This document shows positions 53,688 to 63,431 of a stretch of 64,000 nucleotides of DNA, in pieces (the stretch's first letter is position 1; each line of letters begins with the position of its first letter). Below the pieces are notes generated by a model that worked only from the letters and a program-made list of their open reading frames with translations, was not told where the DNA came from and made no database searches. Where the stretch lies: assembly GCA_016869215.1 (NCBI GenBank), contig VGEP01000009.1, positions 1 to 64,000 on the forward strand. Direction: 5' to 3'. A program made the translations under genes and the position numbers. Source of the DNA: Alphaproteobacteria bacterium. Its GTDB lineage: Bacteria > Pseudomonadota > Alphaproteobacteria > Rhizobiales > Xanthobacteraceae.

Positions 53688-53739
53688 GACGCGCCCCTTT
53701 GCTCGACCCTTTTCGTTGCGGCAAGCCTAGGCGCGCCGT

Positions 53740-53787
53740 GTATCGCGGCGATGTTGACGGGGCCTCGAATTGGTATCGTTGGTATCG
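53740..53787 (-). promoter_or_regulatory. CGATAC operator, site A (upstream of DoxX copy 1)
   Basis: On the minus strand CGATACCAACGATACCAATT (53787-53768) holds two CGATACC half-sites 9 bp apart. A third GATAC (CGATACACGGCG) sits at 53745-53740, 33 bp from the second. Distance from the third site to the start codon is 53 bp. The layout recurs at 54561-54607 and 54702-54748 at near-identical spacing. Confidence 0.65.
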
Positions 53788-53816
53788 CGGGACACGATCC
53801 CGGCGGTGGCGTTCCG

Positions 53817-53853
53817 AAAAAAAAGGGATCGCAGCCGTTGGGCGCGATCCCTT
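53817..53853 (-). terminator. Strong intrinsic terminator after the small exported protein
   Basis: Minus strand: perfect 10-bp stem AAGGGATCGC/GCGATCCCTT with an 11-base loop, directly followed by eight T (counting the last two stem bases). It lies 43 bp downstream of the stop at 53896, so it closes the DoxX2-small-protein unit and insulates it from DoxX1. Confidence 0.85.
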
Positions 53854-53895
53854 GAAGTTGCCGGACCCATTGCGGGACCGGCAGCGGAGGTTCGG

Positions 53896-54111
53896 TCAGA
53901 ACTGGTGGCGGCCGGCGGAAATGGCGGCGGCCTGGCGCACGGCCGGATTCGGGGCCGGGATGCCGTCGTAGCGGATGCTTTCGGAGCGCTTGGCGTCGAG
54001 CGGCTGTGAGTTCGCTTCGGCCGTACGACCGTCGGCCACGACTGCGGCATTGGCGGTGGCGATGAACAGGGTCGCGGTAGCGAGCGCTGCGATCAGAATT
54101 TTGCCGATCAT
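53896..54111 (-). CDS. Small exported protein downstream of DoxX copy 2
   Basis: 71 residues; ATG at 54111 after GGGAGA. Signal peptide MIGKILIAALATATLFIATANAA, then a short polar chain RTAEANSQPLDAKRSESIRYDGIPAP. No known domain. It starts 26 bp after DoxX2, on the same strand, and ends at a strong terminator, so the two are likely co-transcribed. It may assist the DoxX protein in the periplasm; that is inference. Too small and embedded in a larger shadow frame, so easily missed. Confidence 0.75.
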   Translation of the reverse strand: MIGKILIAALATATLFIATANAAVVADGRTAEANSQPLDAKRSESIRYDGIPAPNPAVRQAAAISAGRHQF

Positions 54112-54137
54112 GTCGATCTCCCCGTGTCTGTCGGATA

Positions 54138-54518
54138 TCAGATGTCCCACGCGGCGCGCGGGCGGACGATGACGATCCGTTCGGCCGGGCTCTGCTTGGC
54201 GATGGCGGTCGCCGTGAACTGCGGCGAATGCGGGTGGGCGGCGACTGTGCTCGCCACGTGACCGATGGTCACGCCGAGCGCGCCGACCATGACGCAGGAC
54301 AGCAGCACTGCTCCGAGGATGCCGCCGCGCGGCAACAGGAGGCACAAGCCCGCGAGAATTTCCGCGGTGCCGGCGGCGAACAGGAAGCCGTAGCCGAGGC
54401 CGAGCGCCTGGAACTGCTGGGCCATCGGGCCCGCGCCCGAGAGCTTGGCATAACCCGCCACAAGCGCGATCGCACCGAGCGCGACCTGCACGCCGTAGAT
54501 GCTGATGGTCTTGGTCAT
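54138..54518 (-). CDS. DoxX-family membrane protein, copy 2
   Basis: 126 residues from the ATG at 54518 (MTKTISIYGVQVALGAIALV). Four TM segments matching copy 1 almost residue for residue over the first 90 positions (QQFQALGLGYGFLFAAGTAEILAGL); the C-terminal part diverges. Followed by the 71-residue exported protein. Promoter with CGATAC operator, site B. Tandem duplication with copy 1. Confidence 0.88.
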   Translation of the reverse strand: MTKTISIYGVQVALGAIALVAGYAKLSGAGPMAQQFQALGLGYGFLFAAGTAEILAGLCLLLPRGGILGAVLLSCVMVGALGVTIGHVASTVAAHPHSPQFTATAIAKQSPAERIVIVRPRAAWDI

Positions 54519-54560
54519 GGCACGGCCCCTTCTTCGATGGGGCCACACTAGGCGCCGAGC

Positions 54561-54607
54561 GTATCGCCCGAATGTCGCGGTAACGCTAATTGGTATCGTC
54601 GGTATCG
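54561..54607 (-). promoter_or_regulatory. CGATAC operator, site B (upstream of DoxX copy 2)
   Basis: Minus strand CGATACCGACGATACCAATT (54607-54588), two half-sites 9 bp apart, and a third CGATAC at 54566-54561, 32 bp from the second. The third site is 43 bp from the DoxX2 ATG. The bases after it (GGCGCCTAG) also match site A (GGCGCGCCTAG). Confidence 0.65.
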
Positions 54608-54701
54608 CTACCGAGAATGATTCATCAATGGCTGAAAACCGGCCAAAAACCTGGGTTTTCGAGCGCCCATGGGGCGGTCGCGGCCGGCCGGCCCGACGCT
54701 G

Positions 54702-54748
54702 CGATACAGACGATACAAATCCCGTTCGGCGCGAAACACCGCAGATAC
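54702..54748 (+). promoter_or_regulatory. CGATAC operator, site C (upstream of the hybrid kinase)
   Basis: Plus strand CGATACAGACGATACAAAT (54702-54720), two half-sites 9 bp apart, and a third AGATAC at 54743-54748, 32 bp after the second. Same orientation relative to its gene as sites A and B. Third site to ATG is 40 bp. ACACTATGATG after it could contain a -10-like element. Confidence 0.65.
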
Positions 54749-54787
54749 ACGGCGTGCACACTATGATGAGTTGGGGGAGTTTCAGCG

Positions 54788-57700
54788 ATGCCGACCAAGC
54801 GCATGTCAGGCGCCAAGACCAAACGAAAAGCGGCAGCCGGCACTGCAAGCCCTCATGCCAGGACGGTCCGCCCCAAGTCCGCGGGCCGGGCGCGCGACGG
54901 CGGCCTGGGCGAGGCCGAGCGCTATGCCCTCGCGCTCGAGTCGATCAACGAGAGCGTCTACGACTGGGACGTCGAGACCGACGAAGTCTATTTCTCGCCG
55001 TCGCTTCGCCAGATGCTCGGGCTCCGGCCCAACGAGCCGGTCACGCGCGCAGGCTGGGCCAAGCTGATCCATCCCGACGACCAGGTCCGTCACCGCGAAA
55101 CCCTGTTGGCGCATTTCCGCGCCGAAACGCCGCGCTTCGAATCCGAGTTCCGCTATCGCGCCGGCGACGGCAGCTGGCGCTGGGCGCGCCAGCACGGCAT
55201 CGCGCAACGCGACGGCCGCGGTCGCGTCCGGCGCATGGTGGGCGCGACGGGTGACATCACCGAGGCCAAGCTGCGCGAGCGCGAGCTGCAATCGGCGCGC
55301 GCCGAGGTCGTGGCCGCGCAGCGCTATGCACTGGCGCTCGAATCGATCAACGAGAATCTCTATGACTGGGATATCGACGCCGGTACGGTCTATTACGCCC
55401 CCGGCCTCTACCGCATTCTCGGCCTGACGCCCGACGAGCTTCACACTCCGAAGGACTGGACCGACCGGATCCATCCCGACGACCAGCCGCTGTTCCGCTA
55501 TTCGCTCGCGGAACATCTCAAGGGCAACACCCCGCGCTTCTCCATGGAGCTGCGCTACCGCGCCAGCGACGGTAGTTGGCGCTGGGCACGTCAGGCCGGC
55601 ATCGCGCTGCGCGGCCCCGACGGGCGTGCGCACCGCATGGTCGGCGCGGCCGGCGACATCACCGAGGCCAAGCGCGACGACGAGGCGATGCGGGTCTCCG
55701 CCGACGTGCTCAAGGTGATGAGCCACTCGACGTTCGAGCTGCAGACCGTGCTCGATGCGCTCGCCAATTCGGCCGTCCACCTTTGCGAGGCCGACACCGC
55801 CTTCATTTTCCGCCGCGACGGCTCGCACTACCGCGCGATGGCCGGCGTCGGCCACAACGACGCCTACAGCACCTTCCTGCGCGATCAGCGGATCCCGGTC
55901 GGCCGCGGCACCGTGGTCGGGCGGACCGCGCTCGAGGGCCGGCCGATCCACATTCCCGACATGGCGTCGGACCCCGAGTACAACTGGCCGGAGTCGCAGG
56001 CGATCGGCCGGTTCCGCACCATGCTCGGCGTGCCGCTGATGCGCGAGGGCGTGGCCATCGGCGTGATTGCGCTGGCGCGGCTGGTGACGCGGCCGTTCAG
56101 CGCCAAGCAGATCGAGCTGATCTCCACGTTCGCCGACCAGGCGGTGATCGCGATCGAGACGGTCCGCCTGTTCGAGCAGGTGCAGGAGCGCACCCGCGAG
56201 CTCGAACGTGCGCAGGAGTCGATGCAGACCGTGCTCGACAATATGACGGACGGCGTCACGCTGTTCGACAAGGACTTCCGCCGGCAATTCTCCAACCGGC
56301 GGCTCGACGAGATGGTTGGCTATCCGCCGGAACTGCGCGGCGCCGGCGTGTCGCTGCATGACATTTACCGCTTCATCTACGGCCGCGGCGATTACGGGCC
56401 GGTCGACGACCTCGAAGCCAGCGTTGCAGAGCACGTGGCGAAGGTGACCGATCCGGCGGGTTATCGCTACGAACGGCGCGTGCCCAGCGGGGCTTTCATC
56501 GAATTCACCTTCCGGCGGCTCGCCGACGGCGGCGTGCTCGCGATGTTCCGCGATATCACCGAGCTGAAGGAGCGGCAGGAGGCGCTGGCCGCCGCGAAGG
56601 AGGCCGCCGAGTACGCGCGCGCCGACGCCGAGCGCACCCGGTCGGTGCTCGCCACCATGATCGACAATATGAGCGACGGCATCGCGCTGATGACGCCGCA
56701 GGGCGACGACGTGCGCGCCGACTTCGTCAACCAGCGGATGATGGAGTTCCAGCGCTATCCCGCCGACATCGTGTTCCCCGGCTGCATGATGAGCGACGTG
56801 CGCCGCTTCCAGGTCGGCCGCGGCGATTTCGGCCCGGTCGACGACCCGGAGGCGAAGGTCCGCGAACTGGTCGATCACCTCCTCACCCCGGGCGGCGTGC
56901 GCTTCGAGCGGCCGTCGGCCAGCGGCCATTACATCGAAGTCAGCTACAAGCCGCTCGACAACGGCACCATCCTCAGCATCCACCGCGACATCACCGAGCT
57001 GAAGGAACGCGAGGCCTCGCTCGCGTCGGCGAAGGAGGCTGCCGAGGCCGCGCGCGCCGACGTCGAACACACGCGCCAGATCATGCAGACCGTGCTGGAC
57101 AACATGAACGAGGCGGTCCAGCTCTTCGACAAGGACTTCAACGTCGAGTTCGTCAATCGCCAGCTCTACGAATTTCACCAGTACACGCCCGAAATCGGCG
57201 GGCCGGGCGTCTCGGGCTATGCGGGAATGCGCTTCATGGCGGAGCGTGGCGACTACGGCCCGAACGTCGACGTCGAGAAGGTCGTGGCCGAGCGCGCCGC
57301 GCGCATTCGCGACCCGAAAGGCAGCCGGCACGTGCGCCGGGCCGGCAACGGCAGCCTCGTCGAATTCACCTTCAACCCGCTGCCCGGCGGCCGTGTGCTC
57401 TGCGTGGGCCACGACGTCACCGAGGTCAAGCAGCGCGAGGCGGCGCTGCGGGCCGCAGGCGAGATCCTCAAGCTCATCAGCCGCACCAAGTTCGATCTCA
57501 AGGCGGTGCTCGACAAGCTCGTGGAATCGGCGGTGGCGCTGTGCGAGGCAGACGGCGCCAACATTCATCAGAAGATCGGCGACGAATTCCGGGTCACGGC
57601 GAGCCACGGCTACTCGCGCGAATTGACGGAGTTCATGTTCAATTCGCCGATCCCGCTCGACCGAAGCTCGCTGACCGGCCGGACCGTGCTCGACCGCACC

Positions 57701-60700
57701 GTGATCCACATCCCCGACATCACGAAGGACCCGACCTACAACTGGCAGGGACCGCAACGCTTCGACGAGTACCGGACCATCATCGGCGTGCCGCTGCTGC
57801 GCGACGGCCAGCCGATCGGCGTGCTGGCGATCACGCGCGCCAAGCCGCGCCCGTTCACGCCGGCGCAGATCGAGCTGATCTCGACGTTCGCCGACCAGGC
57901 CGTGATTGCAATCGAGACCCTGCGCCTGTTCGACGAGGTCCAGGAGCGCACTGCGGACGTCGAGCGCACGCGCCAGATCATGCAGACCGCCTTCGACAAC
58001 ATGGAGGACGGTGTCGCCCTGCTCGACAAGGACATGCGCGTGCAGCTCATCAGCCGCGAACGCGTCGAGAGTCGCCAATTCCCGAAAGAGATGACTCGTC
58101 CCGGAACGCCGGCGCGCGACCTGATCCGCTTCCAGGCGGCGCGCGGCGATTTCGGACCGGTGGCGAACGACGAGGAGGTCGAACGCAAGGTCGACGCAGC
58201 GGTTGCGCGCATGTTACTTCCGGACGGCAATCGTTACGAGCGGCGCGAAGGCGACCGCCATATCGAATATCATTTTAAGCCGATCGCCGACGGCGGCCTG
58301 CTCGCCGTCTTCCGCGACATCACCGGCCTCAAGGAGCGCGAACAGGCGTTGGCCCAGGCGCGCAGCGTCATGCAGTACGTGCTGGACAATATGAGCGACG
58401 GCGTCACGCTGTTCGACCGCGATTTCCGCTGCCGGTTCACCAACCAGCGTCTGATCGACTTCCTGCAGATCGACCCGAGCGTGGTTGCGCCCGGCTCGTC
58501 GCTGTTGGACATTTTGCGCCACCAGGCCCGGCGCGGCGATTTCGGGCCGCCGGAAGAGGCGGAGCGTTTGGCGCGCGAGCGCTTCGCCCTGATTTCGAGC
58601 CCTGGCGGAGCTCAATTCGAGCGGCGGACCGCCGAAGGTCGCCAGCTCGAATTCAAGTTCATTCCGCTCGCGAACGGCGAGACCATTGCCGTCACCCGCG
58701 ACATCACCGAGTTGAAGGATCGCGAGGGGGCGATGATCGCCGCCAAGGAGGACGTCGAGCGCACGCGCGAGCTGCTGCAGACCATCCTCGACAACATGAG
58801 CGACGGCATCACGCTATGGGACAGCGACTTCCGCTGGAAGTTCAGCAACCGCCAGCACATCGAACGCCAGCAATACACACCCGACGTGCTCAAGCCAGGC
58901 TCAACCGGCTACGACATGATTCGCTATCAGGCCAAGCGCGGCGAGTACGGCCGGCTCAGGGACGACGAGATCGAGAATAAGGTCCAGGAAGTCGCCTCGA
59001 TCATCCGCAATCCGAAGGGCGGACGCTACGAGCGCCGCACGCTGAGCGGCCGCCACGTCGAGTTCAAGTACAACCGGCTCGCCGACGGCAGCATGATCGG
59101 TCTCTACCGCGATATCACCGAACTGAAAGACCGCGAGGTGGCGCTGGGCGCCGCCAAAGAGTCCGCCGAGGCGGCGCGCGCCGAAGCGGAAGCGGCCACG
59201 CATGCGAAGTCCACATTCCTCGCCACCATGAGCCACGAAATCCGCACCCCAATGAACGGCGTGCTCGGCATGATGGAAGTGCTTGAGCACCAGGGGCTCA
59301 ACGACGAGCAGCGCCGGAGCGTTGCGACCATGCGCGATTCCGCGCAGGGGCTGCTGCGCATCATCGACGATCTGCTCGACTTCTCCAAGATCGAGGCCGG
59401 GCGGCTGGAGCTGGAAGAGACCGCATTCTCGCTCTCGGGTCTGATCTCGGGCTCGGTGGAAACGTTCCGCCCGCAGGCCGCGGCCAAGGGCCTGACCATC
59501 GATGTGCTGATCGCCGCGGGCTCGAACGACGCGCTGGTCGGCGATCCGACACGCGTGCGGCAAGTCCTGTTCAACCTGCTCGGCAACGCCGTGAAATTCA
59601 CCCAGCGCGGCGGCGTCCAGGTGCGCGCCGGTACGGCGCCGCTCGGCCAGGGTGCGACGCGCGTAACGTTGTCGATCAGCGACACCGGGATCGGGCTGAC
59701 GCCGGAGCAGCGCGCGCGCCTGTTCCAGCCGTTCGCCCAGGCCGATTCTTCGACCACGCGCAAGTTCGGCGGGACCGGGCTCGGCCTGTCGATCGTGCGG
59801 CGGCTCGTGGAGCTGATGGACGGCACGATCGAAATCGAGAGCACGCCCGGTGCCGGTTCGACCTTCACCGTGTTGTTGACGCTGAAGGCCGCGCCGGCCG
59901 ACTCGCCGCTGGCGGCGCTGCTGCGGCCCGAGGGCGGCGACCGGCCGGCCGCTCCCATCCCGATCCGCAGCGAACGCCACCGTGTGCTGGTGGTCGACGA
60001 CCATCCGGTCAATCGCGAAGTGCTGGTCCGCCAGCTCGGACTGCTGGGCGTGGCCGCCGACAGCGTCAACGACGGCGTCGAGGCGCTCGAAGCCTGGATG
60101 GCGGGCCGCTACATCGCGGTGCTCGCCGACATCCACATGCCGCGCATGGACGGCTATGAACTGAGCCGGCGCATTCGAGAAGCCGAAGCCGCAGGTGCGA
60201 AGGCGGGCCGCACGCCGATTGTCGCCGTCACCGCCAATGCAATGAAAGGCGAGGAGGAGCGTTGCATCGCGGCCGGGATGGACGCCTATCTGGTGAAGCC
60301 GGTCAGCATCGACCGGCTGCGCACAACGCTCGAACGCTGGCTATCGGTCGGCGGCGATAGCGACCGCGCCGACGCCAGCGAGGGCAACAACGGGGCCGCC
60401 ATCGACCGTAGCGTGCTCGGCGCCTGGCTTGGCGACGACCTTGCCGCCATCGGCTCGCTGCTCGGCAAGTTTCGCGACACTGCGATCGAGACCCAGCGCG
60501 AGATCGACGGCGCCTCGCGCAGCGGCAACCTCGCCGCGCTTGCCGCGGCGGCCCACAAGCTCAAGGGCGCGGCCAATGCGGTGGGCGCCAAGGGTGTCGG
60601 CAGCGCCGCAGCCGTTCTGGAGCAGGCCGGCAAGGCCGGCGACCGCGCGCGGTGCCGCGAGGGCCTGGGACCGCTCGCGTCCGAGCTGCGCCGCGCAATG

Positions 60701-60733
60701 GCCGAGATCGAGGCGTCGCAGCCCCGCTCCTGA
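54788..60733 (+). CDS. Giant soluble hybrid sensor histidine kinase (PAS2-GAF-PAS3-GAF-PAS3-HisKA-HATPase-REC-Hpt)
   Basis: 1981 residues, no membrane segment. Two PAS/PAC units (about 45-160, 178-298), GAF1 (317-465), three PAS_7-like units (478-596, 621-740, 766-882), GAF2 (903-1050), three more PAS_7-like units (1064-1182, 1193-1308, 1330-1448), each ending in RDITELKxR or close to it. Then HisKA with H1483 ([13 protein letters not shown]), HATPase ([25 protein letters not shown]), REC with D1781 ([11 protein letters not shown]) and Hpt with H1923 ([10 protein letters not shown]). A complete internal phosphorelay, lacking only an output regulator. ATG at 54788 (GGGGGAG upstream). Divergent from DoxX2 and shares its operator. 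Confidence 0.92.
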
Positions 60734-60743
60734 GCGGGCGTTG

Positions 60744-61340
60744 TCAGTGCTTGCGCAGCGCGATGTGTACGCCGGTGATGTGAACGCCGCGCGGCGTGAT
60801 CGACACCGACTGCCGGTCGCCCTGCGTCGTCAGCGCGAGTCCCGCCGTGAACAGGTCGCTGGTCGCGACCGCGCGGACGCGGTTGCCGGCGGCGCTGCCC
60901 GAAACCGAGCTGGACACGCCGTTGCTGGCTTCTTGCCAACTGCCGAAAATCCGCCCGCGCCGCTCGACCACGTTGCTGGACAGATCGAAGCGGTAGCTGT
61001 CGCTGGCGCAGCGGATGCTGAGATTGAGGCTCTTGCCGTCCCGGCCGGCGCTGTGGCGCGCCCGGCAGCGCAGCCGCTCGCGCGTCCCGCTCGACAAGAC
61101 GATCGTGCCGCCGCCGCTCCACGAGCCGGCCATGATCGCGAACACATGCGGTTCGGGTTTGGCGGCGGTTTCGCCCGGTGTGGCGGCGGCCGGCTTGACC
61201 GCGTCCGGTTTGGCCGCGGCCGCAGGCGCTGTGCCCCGCGGTGCAGATTGTGCCGGCGCCGGCTGCGCCATTGCAGCTTCGCATGTCAGGACGATCGCCA
61301 GCGCGGCGACGGCCCGTTGTCCGATTGCATACGGATTCAT
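60744..61340 (-). CDS. Exported protein, paralogue of the next gene (copy A)
   Basis: 198 residues from the ATG at 61340 (MNPYAIGQRAVAALAIVL). Signal peptide ends near CEAAMAQPAPAQ, followed by an Ala/Pro/Lys-rich linker of about 50 residues. The C-terminal domain (about 68-198) has AGSWSGGGTI, TRERLRCRARH, LSIRCASDSYRFDLSSNVVERRGRIFGSW, and ends in a HIALRKH tail. The same pattern is in the 61393-61872 protein. No known enzyme. Probably periplasmic; role unknown. Confidence 0.8.
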   Translation of the reverse strand: MNPYAIGQRAVAALAIVLTCEAAMAQPAPAQSAPRGTAPAAAAKPDAVKPAAATPGETAAKPEPHVFAIMAGSWSGGGTIVLSSGTRERLRCRARHSAGRDGKSLNLSIRCASDSYRFDLSSNVVERRGRIFGSWQEASNGVSSSVSGSAAGNRVRAVATSDLFTAGLALTTQGDRQSVSITPRGVHITGVHIALRKH

Positions 61341-61392
61341 CGGCGCCCCCTCACAGTCTGTGAGGGGATCATAGGACAACTTGCGTCCGCCG

Positions 61393-61872
61393 TCAGCGTT
61401 TGCGCAGCGACAGCGTCACCCGGTCGACCACCGTGCCCTCCGGCCGCATGGTGACCGTCTGCTGGTTCGAGCCGGTCGACATGGATAGCCGGGCCGAGAA
61501 GGTGTTGCCGACCGCAAGCACGTTGATCTGGCTGCCGGTGGCGCGGCCGTTCATCGTGCCGGCAGCGTTGAACGTGGTTTCGCTCCACTGGCCGGACAGC
61601 GATCCGCCTCGGTTGGTCACGAAGCCGGTCAAATCGAACTTGTAGCTGTCGCTGGCGCAGCGAATGGCGAGCTGGACATGATTGCCGTCCTCGCCGACGG
61701 TGTAGTTCGCCCGGCAGCGCAGTCGCTCGCGCTTGCCGTCGGTCATGTTGATCAGGCCACCGCCGGTCCATTCGCCGGCCATGCCGGTGAAGGGTCCGGC
61801 CGCGATAGCGGCGTTGGGTCCGGTCAATGCAAGGGTCAAGACAGTCAGGGCCCACGCTATTCGCGACAACAT
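61393..61872 (-). CDS. Exported protein, paralogue of the preceding entry (copy B)
   Basis: 159 residues, ATG at 61872. Signal peptide LSRIAWALTVLTLALTGPNAAIAAG. The domain pattern matches copy A: MAGEWTGGGLI, KRERLRCRANY, LAIRCASDSYKFDL, GSLSGQWSETT, VTLSLRKR. No linker here. Two close paralogues next to each other and behind an OmpR regulator on the same strand suggest a duplicated envelope-stress-type gene; function unknown. 52 bp separate the two. Confidence 0.8.
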   Translation of the reverse strand: MLSRIAWALTVLTLALTGPNAAIAAGPFTGMAGEWTGGGLINMTDGKRERLRCRANYTVGEDGNHVQLAIRCASDSYKFDLTGFVTNRGGSLSGQWSETTFNAAGTMNGRATGSQINVLAVGNTFSARLSMSTGSNQQTVTMRPEGTVVDRVTLSLRKR

Positions 61873-62015: not shown

Positions 62016-62723
62016 TCAGTCCTTCGGCGGCACGAACATGTAGCCGACGCCGCGGACGGTGCGGATCGCCTCCGGGTGCGCGGGATCGGCCTCGATCTTG
62101 CGACGCAGCCTGGTGATCCGCAGATCGATGGCGCGATCGAAGGCCTCCATCTCGCGATGGGCTGTGACTTCGAGCAGCCAGTCGCGGGTTAATGGGCGGT
62201 TGGGGTTTTCGGCGAAAACCTTGAGCAGGTCGAATTCGCTGGACGTCAGCGTCTCCTCGTCGCCATTGCCCGGATCGACCAGCACGCGTTTCTCCAGGTC
62301 CAGCACGCGGCGGCCCATGCGGGTGCGCGGTCCGGCGGACGCCTGCGCGCCGGTGACGCGCCGGAGCACGCTCTTGATCCGCGCGAGCAGTTCGCGCGGT
62401 TCGTAGGGCTTGCCGATGTAATCGTCGGCGCCGGTCTCGAGCCCGACCACGCGATCGACGGTGTCGGAGGCCGCCGTCACCATGATGATCCCGACGCGCC
62501 CGCTTCGCTCGCGCAGCCAGCGCGCCAGCGCAAAGCCGTCCTCGCCCGGCAAGCCGACGTCGAGCAACACCAGTTCGGGAAGCTCGCGCTCGACGATTCG
62601 CCGCAGTGCGCCGCCGCCGTCGGCGCCGCTGACGCGAAAGCTCTGCTTGTCGAGGTAGTCGACGAGCAGTTGGCGCTGCGTCGGCTCGTCTTCGACCACG
62701 ACGATGTGCGGCCGCTGGTCCAT
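62016..62723 (-). CDS. OmpR/PhoB-type response regulator
   Basis: 235 residues. Receiver domain with acidic ED/DE near [11 protein letters not shown], phosphoacceptor D55 ([13 protein letters not shown]), T83 and K105 (IGKPYEP). A C-terminal winged-helix domain ([52 protein letters not shown]). No histidine kinase gene directly beside it. It lies 24 bp after the HbpS-like gene on the same strand, so the two are probably one operon. TorR-like in overall pattern. Its partner could be the orphan hybrid kinase at 54788, but this is untested. Confidence 0.92.
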
Positions 62724-62747: not shown

Positions 62748-63236
62748 CTACTTCATGGCCTCGGCGCCGGCCTGCGCAACCTGCGCGTTGTTCGACGACC
62801 GCATGCCCGACACGCCGATGGCACCGACGATCTTGCCGTCGGCTACGAGCGGCAGGCCGCCGTCCAGCGGTACGATGTCCCGGAGCGCGAGGAAGCGCAG
62901 GCCTGCGCCGCCGCCGGAGATCGCCTCGTCGAGCAGCTTGGATGGAATCTTGAAGTAGAGCGCCGAGCGCGCCTTTCCGGTGGACAGCTCGACCGAGGAC
63001 AGTTGCGTGTTGTCCATGCGGTGCAGCATCACCAGATGGCCGCCGCTGTCGATGATCGCGATTGCCATCGGCCAGTTGTTCTTCGCCGCTTCCGCCTCGG
63101 CGGCAGCCATGGCCTTTTTCGCGGCTTCCAGTGTGATTGGGGGGCCATATGGCGGCTGCGTGTTCTGCGATTGTGCGGGCAGCACCGCCAGCAGCGCAAA
63201 AACGCAGGCGCCGGCAAGGGTTCTCAGCATCGTCAT
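62748..63236 (-). CDS. Exported HbpS/GlcG-family protein
   Basis: 162 residues from the ATG at 63236 (GGAGG upstream). Signal peptide [24 protein letters not shown]. GlcG/HbpS domain: [43 protein letters not shown], then [15 protein letters not shown], and [19 protein letters not shown]. In Streptomyces the homologue HbpS is a secreted haem-binding redox sensor acting with a two-component system. Here it lies directly ahead of a response regulator. Haem binding by this protein is inferred from family alone. Divergent from msrA. Confidence 0.88.
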
Positions 63237-63431
63237 GGGGCCTCCACACACAATCCGGTTTGGCCGCAGCATAAGTGCCCTGAGCGATTAGGGAAACAGG
63301 GCCGCTCGCGACGCCGTGAAGCATTCGAGGGTCCCGATGGCTGGAATTTGACGACCCGGACGGTGCCTAATGCGCGCGTTCGGCCTATATTTGCGTCACC
63401 GATCGCAATCAGACCTGCAGGAGAACCGGCC

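Follow-up and report, generated by a model that had tools for sequence, protein, structure and literature searches.

A Four-Box CGATAC Operator and Its Candidate OmpR/PhoB-Type Regulator Near Alphaproteobacterial doxX and Hybrid Kinase Genes

Introduction

Three promoters in one stretch of an alphaproteobacterial genome share an arrangement of CGATAC repeats, which raises the question whether they are read by one regulator and, if so, by which. The stretch, called the window here, comprises 64,000 nucleotides of contig VGEP01000009.1 (assembly GCA_016869215.1). An earlier note on this DNA had described a tri-partite operator upstream of two doxX genes and of a hybrid histidine kinase gene, and had taken it for the mark of a real regulon of one unknown regulator, with the kinase gene autoregulated.

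Results

Operator Copies in the Source Genome

The layout CGATAC-N3-CGATAC...GATAC is present at all three promoters with the coordinates and orientation first reported (Table 1). Within the window the exact distal pair CGATACNNNCGATAC occurs at these three places only, 53773-53787 (-), 54593-54607 (-) and 54702-54716 (+). When up to two mismatches are allowed there are eight matches against 4.09 expected, and 7 of 100 shuffles reach that number; by itself the loose motif is therefore not significant and only the exact or full-length form is informative. In the source genome (G000, 5.15 Mb) exact distal pairs number seven, against none for the reversed control. A fourth full copy with the whole layout is located on contig C10 (locus L004) before the gene of a small exported-looking protein, and a weak fifth copy with a degenerate box 4 lies on contig C66 (L140, 3301-3354, minus strand). 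The sequence model built from 41 aligned sites gives the four full copies, which are part of its training set, 60, 58.3, 53.5, and 52.4 bits, and the fifth, which is outside the training set, 30 bits; below this there are ten further matches, all at or below 17.3 bits. Exact distal pairs on contigs C25 and C53 were taken as chance occurrences, as the AAT tail is missing and there is no full-length model match (none at the C25 place, 12.6 bits at C53). Also dropped from the regulon were a site on C65, which scores 17.3 bits and consists of the distal pair alone, and C9:79836, where the distal pair has one mismatch and the model finds nothing at E ≤ 1.

TABLE 1. Operators, promoters and genes of the window, with positions counted from its first nucleotide.
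Feature	Position	Strand	Remarks
Operator/promoter A (doxX1)	53724..53787	-	Model 53.5 bits (training site)
Boxes of operator A	box 1 53782-53787; box 2 53773-53778; box 3 CAACAT 53751-53756; box 4 53740-53745; -10 TAGGCT 53724-53729	-	
doxX1, DoxX-like, 129 aa	53298..53687	-	Pfam DoxX_2 31.2 bits, above cut-off
Operator/promoter B (doxX2)	54545..54607	-	Model 60 bits (training site)
Boxes of operator B	box 1 54602-54607; box 2 54593-54598; box 3 CGACAT 54572-54577; box 4 54561-54566; -10 TAGTGT 54545-54550	-	
doxX2, DoxX-like, 126 aa	54138..54518	-	Pfam DoxX_2 34 bits, above cut-off
Small exported-looking protein, 71 aa	53896..54111	-	ORF; export judged by eye
Operator/promoter C (kinase)	54702..54764	+	Model 52.4 bits (training site)
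Boxes of operator C	box 1 54702-54707; box 2 54711-54716; box 3 CGAAAC 54732-54737; box 4 AGATAC 54743-54748; -10 CACTAT 54759-54764	+	
Hybrid histidine kinase, 1981 aa	54788..60733	+	Pfam: PAS/GAF array, HisKA, HATPase_c, receiver, Hpt
OmpR/PhoB-family response regulator, 235 aa	62016..62723	-	Pfam Response_reg and Trans_reg_C; proposed reader of the operator

Structure of the Operator and the Promoter

The operator turned out to have four direct-repeat boxes rather than three parts, the box that had been missed (box 3) starting exactly 11 bp before the GATAC box in operators A, B, and C. For the GATAC box itself, said to lie 32-33 bp further on, the start-to-start distance from box 2 is indeed 33 bp in A and 32 bp in both B and C, and its distance to the ATG, given as 40-53 bp, is 52 (A), 42 (B), and 39 bp (C) when measured from the box end. 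The 9-bp spacing applies to the distal pair only, the proximal pair having the usual 11 bp. The downstream bases that A and B have in common, GGCGCCTAG, are part of the -10 region. In the 41-site alignment box 1 is CGATAC; box 2, starting 9 bp after box 1, is CGATAC with an A-rich tail; box 3, usually 21 bp after box 2, is mostly CGACAY, CGAAAC, or CGATAC; and box 4, CGATAC, comes 11 bp after box 3 with the -10 element 10 bp past it. In the candidate operators, direct repeats thus follow one another with periods of 11 bp and 9 bp.

The A(-11)...T(-7) pair of the -10 element stands at one offset from box 4 in 30 of the 41 sites, and in at most four at any of 12 other offsets. No TTGACA-like -35 was found, the best match reaching at most three of six bases in 40 of the 41 aligned sites, and boxes 3 and 4, which span about -39 to -23 counted from the -10 element, therefore appear to take its place. 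The promoters thus show one mark of a PhoB-type class II promoter, a direct repeat in place of the -35 at a fixed distance from the -10. The alignment was assembled from 28 rows obtained with a pattern that fixes boxes 1, 2, and 4 and 13 rows from searches with boxes 1 and 2 in the pattern; the latter were chosen by eye (19 of 31 places kept for fitting the layout and 12 left out, 13 remaining after removal of duplicates) and their box 4 was set by the best match over six offsets. Of 53 sites obtained with a wider pattern scan (see below), the 26 in regulator-less genomes were excluded from the alignment, except L058, where the layout fitted. Although no search pattern included box 3 or the -10, the selection by eye is partly behind their conservation in the alignment; a clean test of box 3 comes from the unselected comparison of the 53 pattern sites.

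A search for distal pairs spaced N1 to N8 in 29 regulator-positive genomes, 19 of which had themselves been recruited via the N3 pattern, gave 43 matches, 38 of them N3. In the 10 genomes that came from the protein search all 13 distal pairs were N3, with no exact match in G406, G423, and G448. Twenty regulator-less family genomes gave three matches, one of them N3 (G004). At locus L231 of G004, which is of the same genus and has no regulator, there is a lone distal pair, CGATACCGACGATACAAA, without boxes 3 and 4, either a chance occurrence or a relic. At three Acetobacteraceae loci near a regulator gene the model matches boxes 1 and 2 only (model positions 1-35 in L121 and L122, 2-31 in L123), perhaps a half-length operator; L122 has a full site as well, on the opposite strand.

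Genes Downstream of the Operator

In the family genomes 30 sites were found. Of these, 12 stand before kinase genes (every one of the 10 genomes concerned has such a site, G021 and G424 have two), nine before DoxX-like genes, six before genes of small exported-looking proteins, and two before fatty-acid hydroxylase genes (G026); these targets were assigned by eye from translations, and Pfam was run on the window kinase, doxX1, doxX2, one DoxX-like protein (L198), both hydroxylases, and a globin. The view that the sites lie upstream of genes is supported in part by the 21 of 30 that stand before a kinase or DoxX-like gene, and that of an autoregulated kinase gene is supported by the comparative data; an operator stands before the kinase in all 10 family genomes with the regulator. 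No model match was found before the regulator gene of the window. The gene of the 71-aa protein, for which neither Pfam nor NCBIfam gave a match, lies downstream of doxX2 and, judged from this position, is probably on the same transcript. The remaining family site, the weak fifth copy of the source genome (L140), stands upstream of a 94-aa ORF and of a gene for a globin (Pfam Globin 66.4 bits). Downstream genes in Acetobacteraceae include those of an AfsA-like hotdog protein and an NMT1-like protein, and no convincing downstream gene was found at the Acetobacteraceae loci L057, L077, and L090.

Distribution of the Operator and the Regulator

The response regulator at 62016-62723 has the two domains of the OmpR/PhoB family, both above cut-off (Response_reg 92 bits, Trans_reg_C 78.1 bits). 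An ortholog of at least 77% identity is present in 10 of 149 family genomes, and the motif model (E ≤ 0.001) matches the same 10 (Fisher test, 9e-16), four of which gave no training site (G406, G423, G424, G448) and six of which share sites with the training set (G000, G002, G003, G021, G026, G507); the filters of the model search, in this and in the class sample below, lose weak matches. The earlier note had made conservation in relatives the test of its motif, and full sites are absent from the regulator-less genomes among the 149. An eleventh family genome (G036) has a 55% relative of the regulator and no operator site, and four genomes of the same genus (G004, G007, G008, G010) have no match to the regulator, the motif model, or doxX2. 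Relatives of doxX2 (E ≤ 1e-12) are found in eight of the 149 genomes, all eight among the 10 with the regulator. The module thus seems to have come or gone as one block. Most of the 30 family sites, 21 in 9 of the 10 genomes, are located no more than 10 kb from the regulator gene, and in these nine the kinase and regulator genes point towards each other; in the tenth (G423) the regulator lies at a contig start.

The genome collection was also scanned for CGATACNNNCGATACNAAN{23,26}GATAC, which gave 51 stretches with 53 sites. ORFs were clustered from 42 sources, comprising the window, 16 earlier loci, and 25 of the 51 stretches (those that looked genuine by eye). Of the resulting protein clusters, ten recur in at least three loci, and among these a DNA-binding family is found only in the kinase/regulator cluster; the remaining recurrent clusters are DoxX, malic enzyme, acyl-CoA dehydrogenase, GFO/IDH oxidoreductase, NMT1-like, short-chain dehydrogenase, ribosomal S2, extensin-like, and a 116-aa protein with a sub-cut-off DUF2523 match. 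An OmpR/PhoB-family regulator like that of the window is encoded in six loci (76-88% identity in L071, L092, L100, L069, and L061, 60% in L067). When it was sought in the whole genomes of 50 of the 51 loci (48 genomes; L094 was omitted as it shares a contig with L092), an ortholog of 61-89% identity was present in 22 (at least 284 bits), the other 26 reaching 46% at best. Box 3, scored at four or more of six bases, is present in 26 of 27 sites in regulator-positive genomes vs. 2 of 26 elsewhere (p = 1e-11), and a length of 47 bp is found in 26 of 27 vs. 6 of 26 (p = 2e-8). The two sets are unmatched by lineage, many regulator-negative sites being Firmicutes or Bacteroidota according to their record titles. 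One genuine-looking site, L058, is in a genome without the regulator (G064, a metagenome-assembled genome, MAG) and counts against the link. Around regulator genes of other genomes a model match (E ≤ 0.001) was found within about 1.5 kb in 14 of 38 loci, some of them partial.

We conclude with good confidence that the OmpR/PhoB-family response regulator 62016-62723 (-) is the probable reader of the operator. The proposal of one regulator behind a real regulon thus gains from the comparative data, and the word "unknown" can be dropped, as this regulator, already named as a candidate, co-occurs with the operator in the family sample.

In a class-wide sample of 289 genomes, relatives of the regulator (at least 56% identity) are present in six and model matches (E ≤ 0.01) in 12, both together in three (G000, G174, G292), and in this sample the link was not seen outside the source genome: the matches in G174 (21.5 bits) and G292 (19 bits) are no stronger than those of 16-25 bits in nine genomes without a relative, and G294, G313, and G388, with relatives of 56-66%, have no model match. 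The link can therefore be claimed for close family orthologs and for the pattern-recruited genomes (at least 61%), but not for every relative. Records with the operator include Acetobacteraceae, Reyranella, and Rhodoferax. Operator and regulator are found together in a Burkholderiaceae MAG (L069/L235; 83% identity) and in Rhodoferax MAGs (L067 and L093; 62% identity); these betaproteobacterial records may reflect either lateral transfer or mis-binned contigs.

Discussion

Our preferred reading, to which we give a probability of roughly 0.8, is that the four-box sites are operators of one OmpR/PhoB-type regulator (62016-62723), the putative partner of the hybrid kinase 54788-60733, and that it recruits polymerase in a class II manner. 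What this most likely describes is a two-component module in which the regulator would activate the gene of its own kinase together with a small regulon, perhaps directed at the envelope. The kinase would sense a signal and pass phosphate via its receiver and Hpt domains to the regulator, which would then bind the CGATAC-like boxes head-to-tail in two pairs. The boxes are 9 bp apart in the distal pair and 11 bp apart in the proximal one, which lies closer to the gene by about two helical turns. Since the proximal pair takes the -35 position, with 10 bp between its end and a TAnnnT-type -10 element, RNA polymerase is probably recruited in the way known for PhoB; as a -35 is missing, the simplest assumption is activation by such recruitment. 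The targets would be the kinase gene itself, the doxX genes, and genes of small exported-looking proteins, and with an operator in the kinase promoter the system should amplify itself by positive feedback.

The same regulator might instead act as a repressor, with boxes 3 and 4 across the -35 blocking polymerase until phosphorylation, or the loss of it, relieves the block. Their position at about -39 to -23 is also open to a repressor, but 40 of 41 sites offer no good -35 to an unaided polymerase and in 30 of 41 the spacing between box 4 and the -10 is constant, which contact between protein and polymerase would explain, and we regard repression as unlikely. Less probable still is that the operator is read by a different DNA-binding protein, co-inherited with the kinase, regulator, and doxX genes. 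Co-occurrence by itself cannot separate genes that travel as one block; among the 10 clusters that recur in at least three of the 42 sources, however, those other than kinase and regulator contain no DNA-binding family, and some sites lie far from the module (on C10 in the source genome, on C82 in G448, and 105 kb away in G021).

That the boxes are not an operator at all but the promoter of an alternative, ECF-type sigma factor would fit a fixed spacing at many promoters. It is nevertheless most improbable, four direct repeats over 47 bp being more than the two elements of a sigma footprint and an ordinary-looking TAnnnT -10 element lying downstream of the boxes. Likeness by descent or chance, without any shared regulator, can be discarded. 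doxX1 and doxX2 are indeed paralogs, as had been noted, and at 76% identity their promoters could have been duplicated along with them, but the same operator stands before the kinase gene and, in relatives, before exported-looking proteins and the two fatty-acid hydroxylase genes, and it recurs in the Acetobacteraceae, Reyranella, and Rhodoferax records. Seven exact distal pairs in the source genome vs. none in the reversed control argue in the same direction, and the explanation is contradicted by the split in box 3 over 53 sites as well as by the joint occurrence of regulator and motif in 10 of 149 genomes.

The operator reader proposed here, the 62016 regulator, has its closest parallels in well-known systems. 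In E. coli, PhoB sites usually substitute for the -35 region (PMC4971064) and pho boxes are 11-nt direct repeats (PMC4415409), and it is to such class II promoters that the present ones are alike in the family of the regulator, the head-to-tail repeats, the 11-bp proximal period, and a site that replaces the -35. They differ in the box, CGATAC instead of CTGTCAT, in a distal pair with a 9-bp period set off by 21 bp, and in the partner, here a PAS/GAF hybrid kinase with Hpt; the regulator scores 168.3 bits with the NCBIfam PhoB model, below the cut-off of 296.2. The TorS/TorR system, in which torCAD is preceded by tor boxes 1 to 4 that differ in affinity (PMC9239176), shares with the window a hybrid kinase with receiver and Hpt, an OmpR-family regulator, and four boxes upstream of the target. 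TorR and TorS are among the best NCBIfam matches of regulator and kinase, both below the curated cut-offs (186.4 bits with a cut-off of 275, and 367.6 bits with a cut-off of 676.5, respectively). The tor box has another sequence than the CGATAC operator and a 10-bp period. The best NCBIfam model of the regulator is OmpR (235.4 bits, cut-off 331), and OmpR has a partner kinase and targets other than those of the 62016 regulator. No cut-off was passed among the 25 listed of 93 matched NCBIfam models. The closest plasmid matches of the regulator, nine records of 51-54% identity, are annotated only as response regulators.

A distal spacing of 9 bp is unusual for the OmpR/PhoB family, and to our knowledge a composite 9/11-bp operator grammar has not been described for its regulators. 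Titles and abstract beginnings of the open-licence literature, which leaves most subscription journals outside, gave no description of the operator or of this grammar. The regulon looks real, of a known kind, and undescribed. More tentatively, and with the odds against it, one could suggest that each promoter combines two binding modes, a standard head-to-tail dimer with 11-bp spacing at the -35 and, upstream, a compact one with 9-bp spacing, the 21-bp gap being needed for a cooperative four-subunit complex, in an uncharacterised and patchily inherited two-component module that controls DoxX-type proteins.

On the preferred reading a hybrid kinase, a response regulator, and proteins without assigned function (DoxX-like and small exported-looking ones) would become one testable regulon with a defined DNA code, spread over several alphaproteobacterial groups and a few betaproteobacterial records. 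The co-occurrence in the family offers a way into the search for the signal, and with its mixed 9/11-bp spacing the operator is well suited to asking how OmpR/PhoB-type regulators cope with differences in spacing.

Some further features of the locus are of interest. With six PAS_7 and two GAF stretches (Pfam) the kinase (54788-60733, +) has a long sensor array, which may have grown by internal duplication. Between the kinase and regulator genes lie two neighbouring genes of exported-looking proteins, 60744-61379 (-) and 61393-61872 (-), which gave no Pfam match and are mutually similar, with a common RERLRCRA...IRCASDSY.FDL stretch (by eye). Just upstream of the regulator gene, 62748-63272 (-) encodes a 174-aa protein that matches NCBIfam PRK09732 with 85.4 bits, below the cut-off of 246. 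We take it to be of the GlcG/HbpS heme-binding type, and it could bear on the signal.
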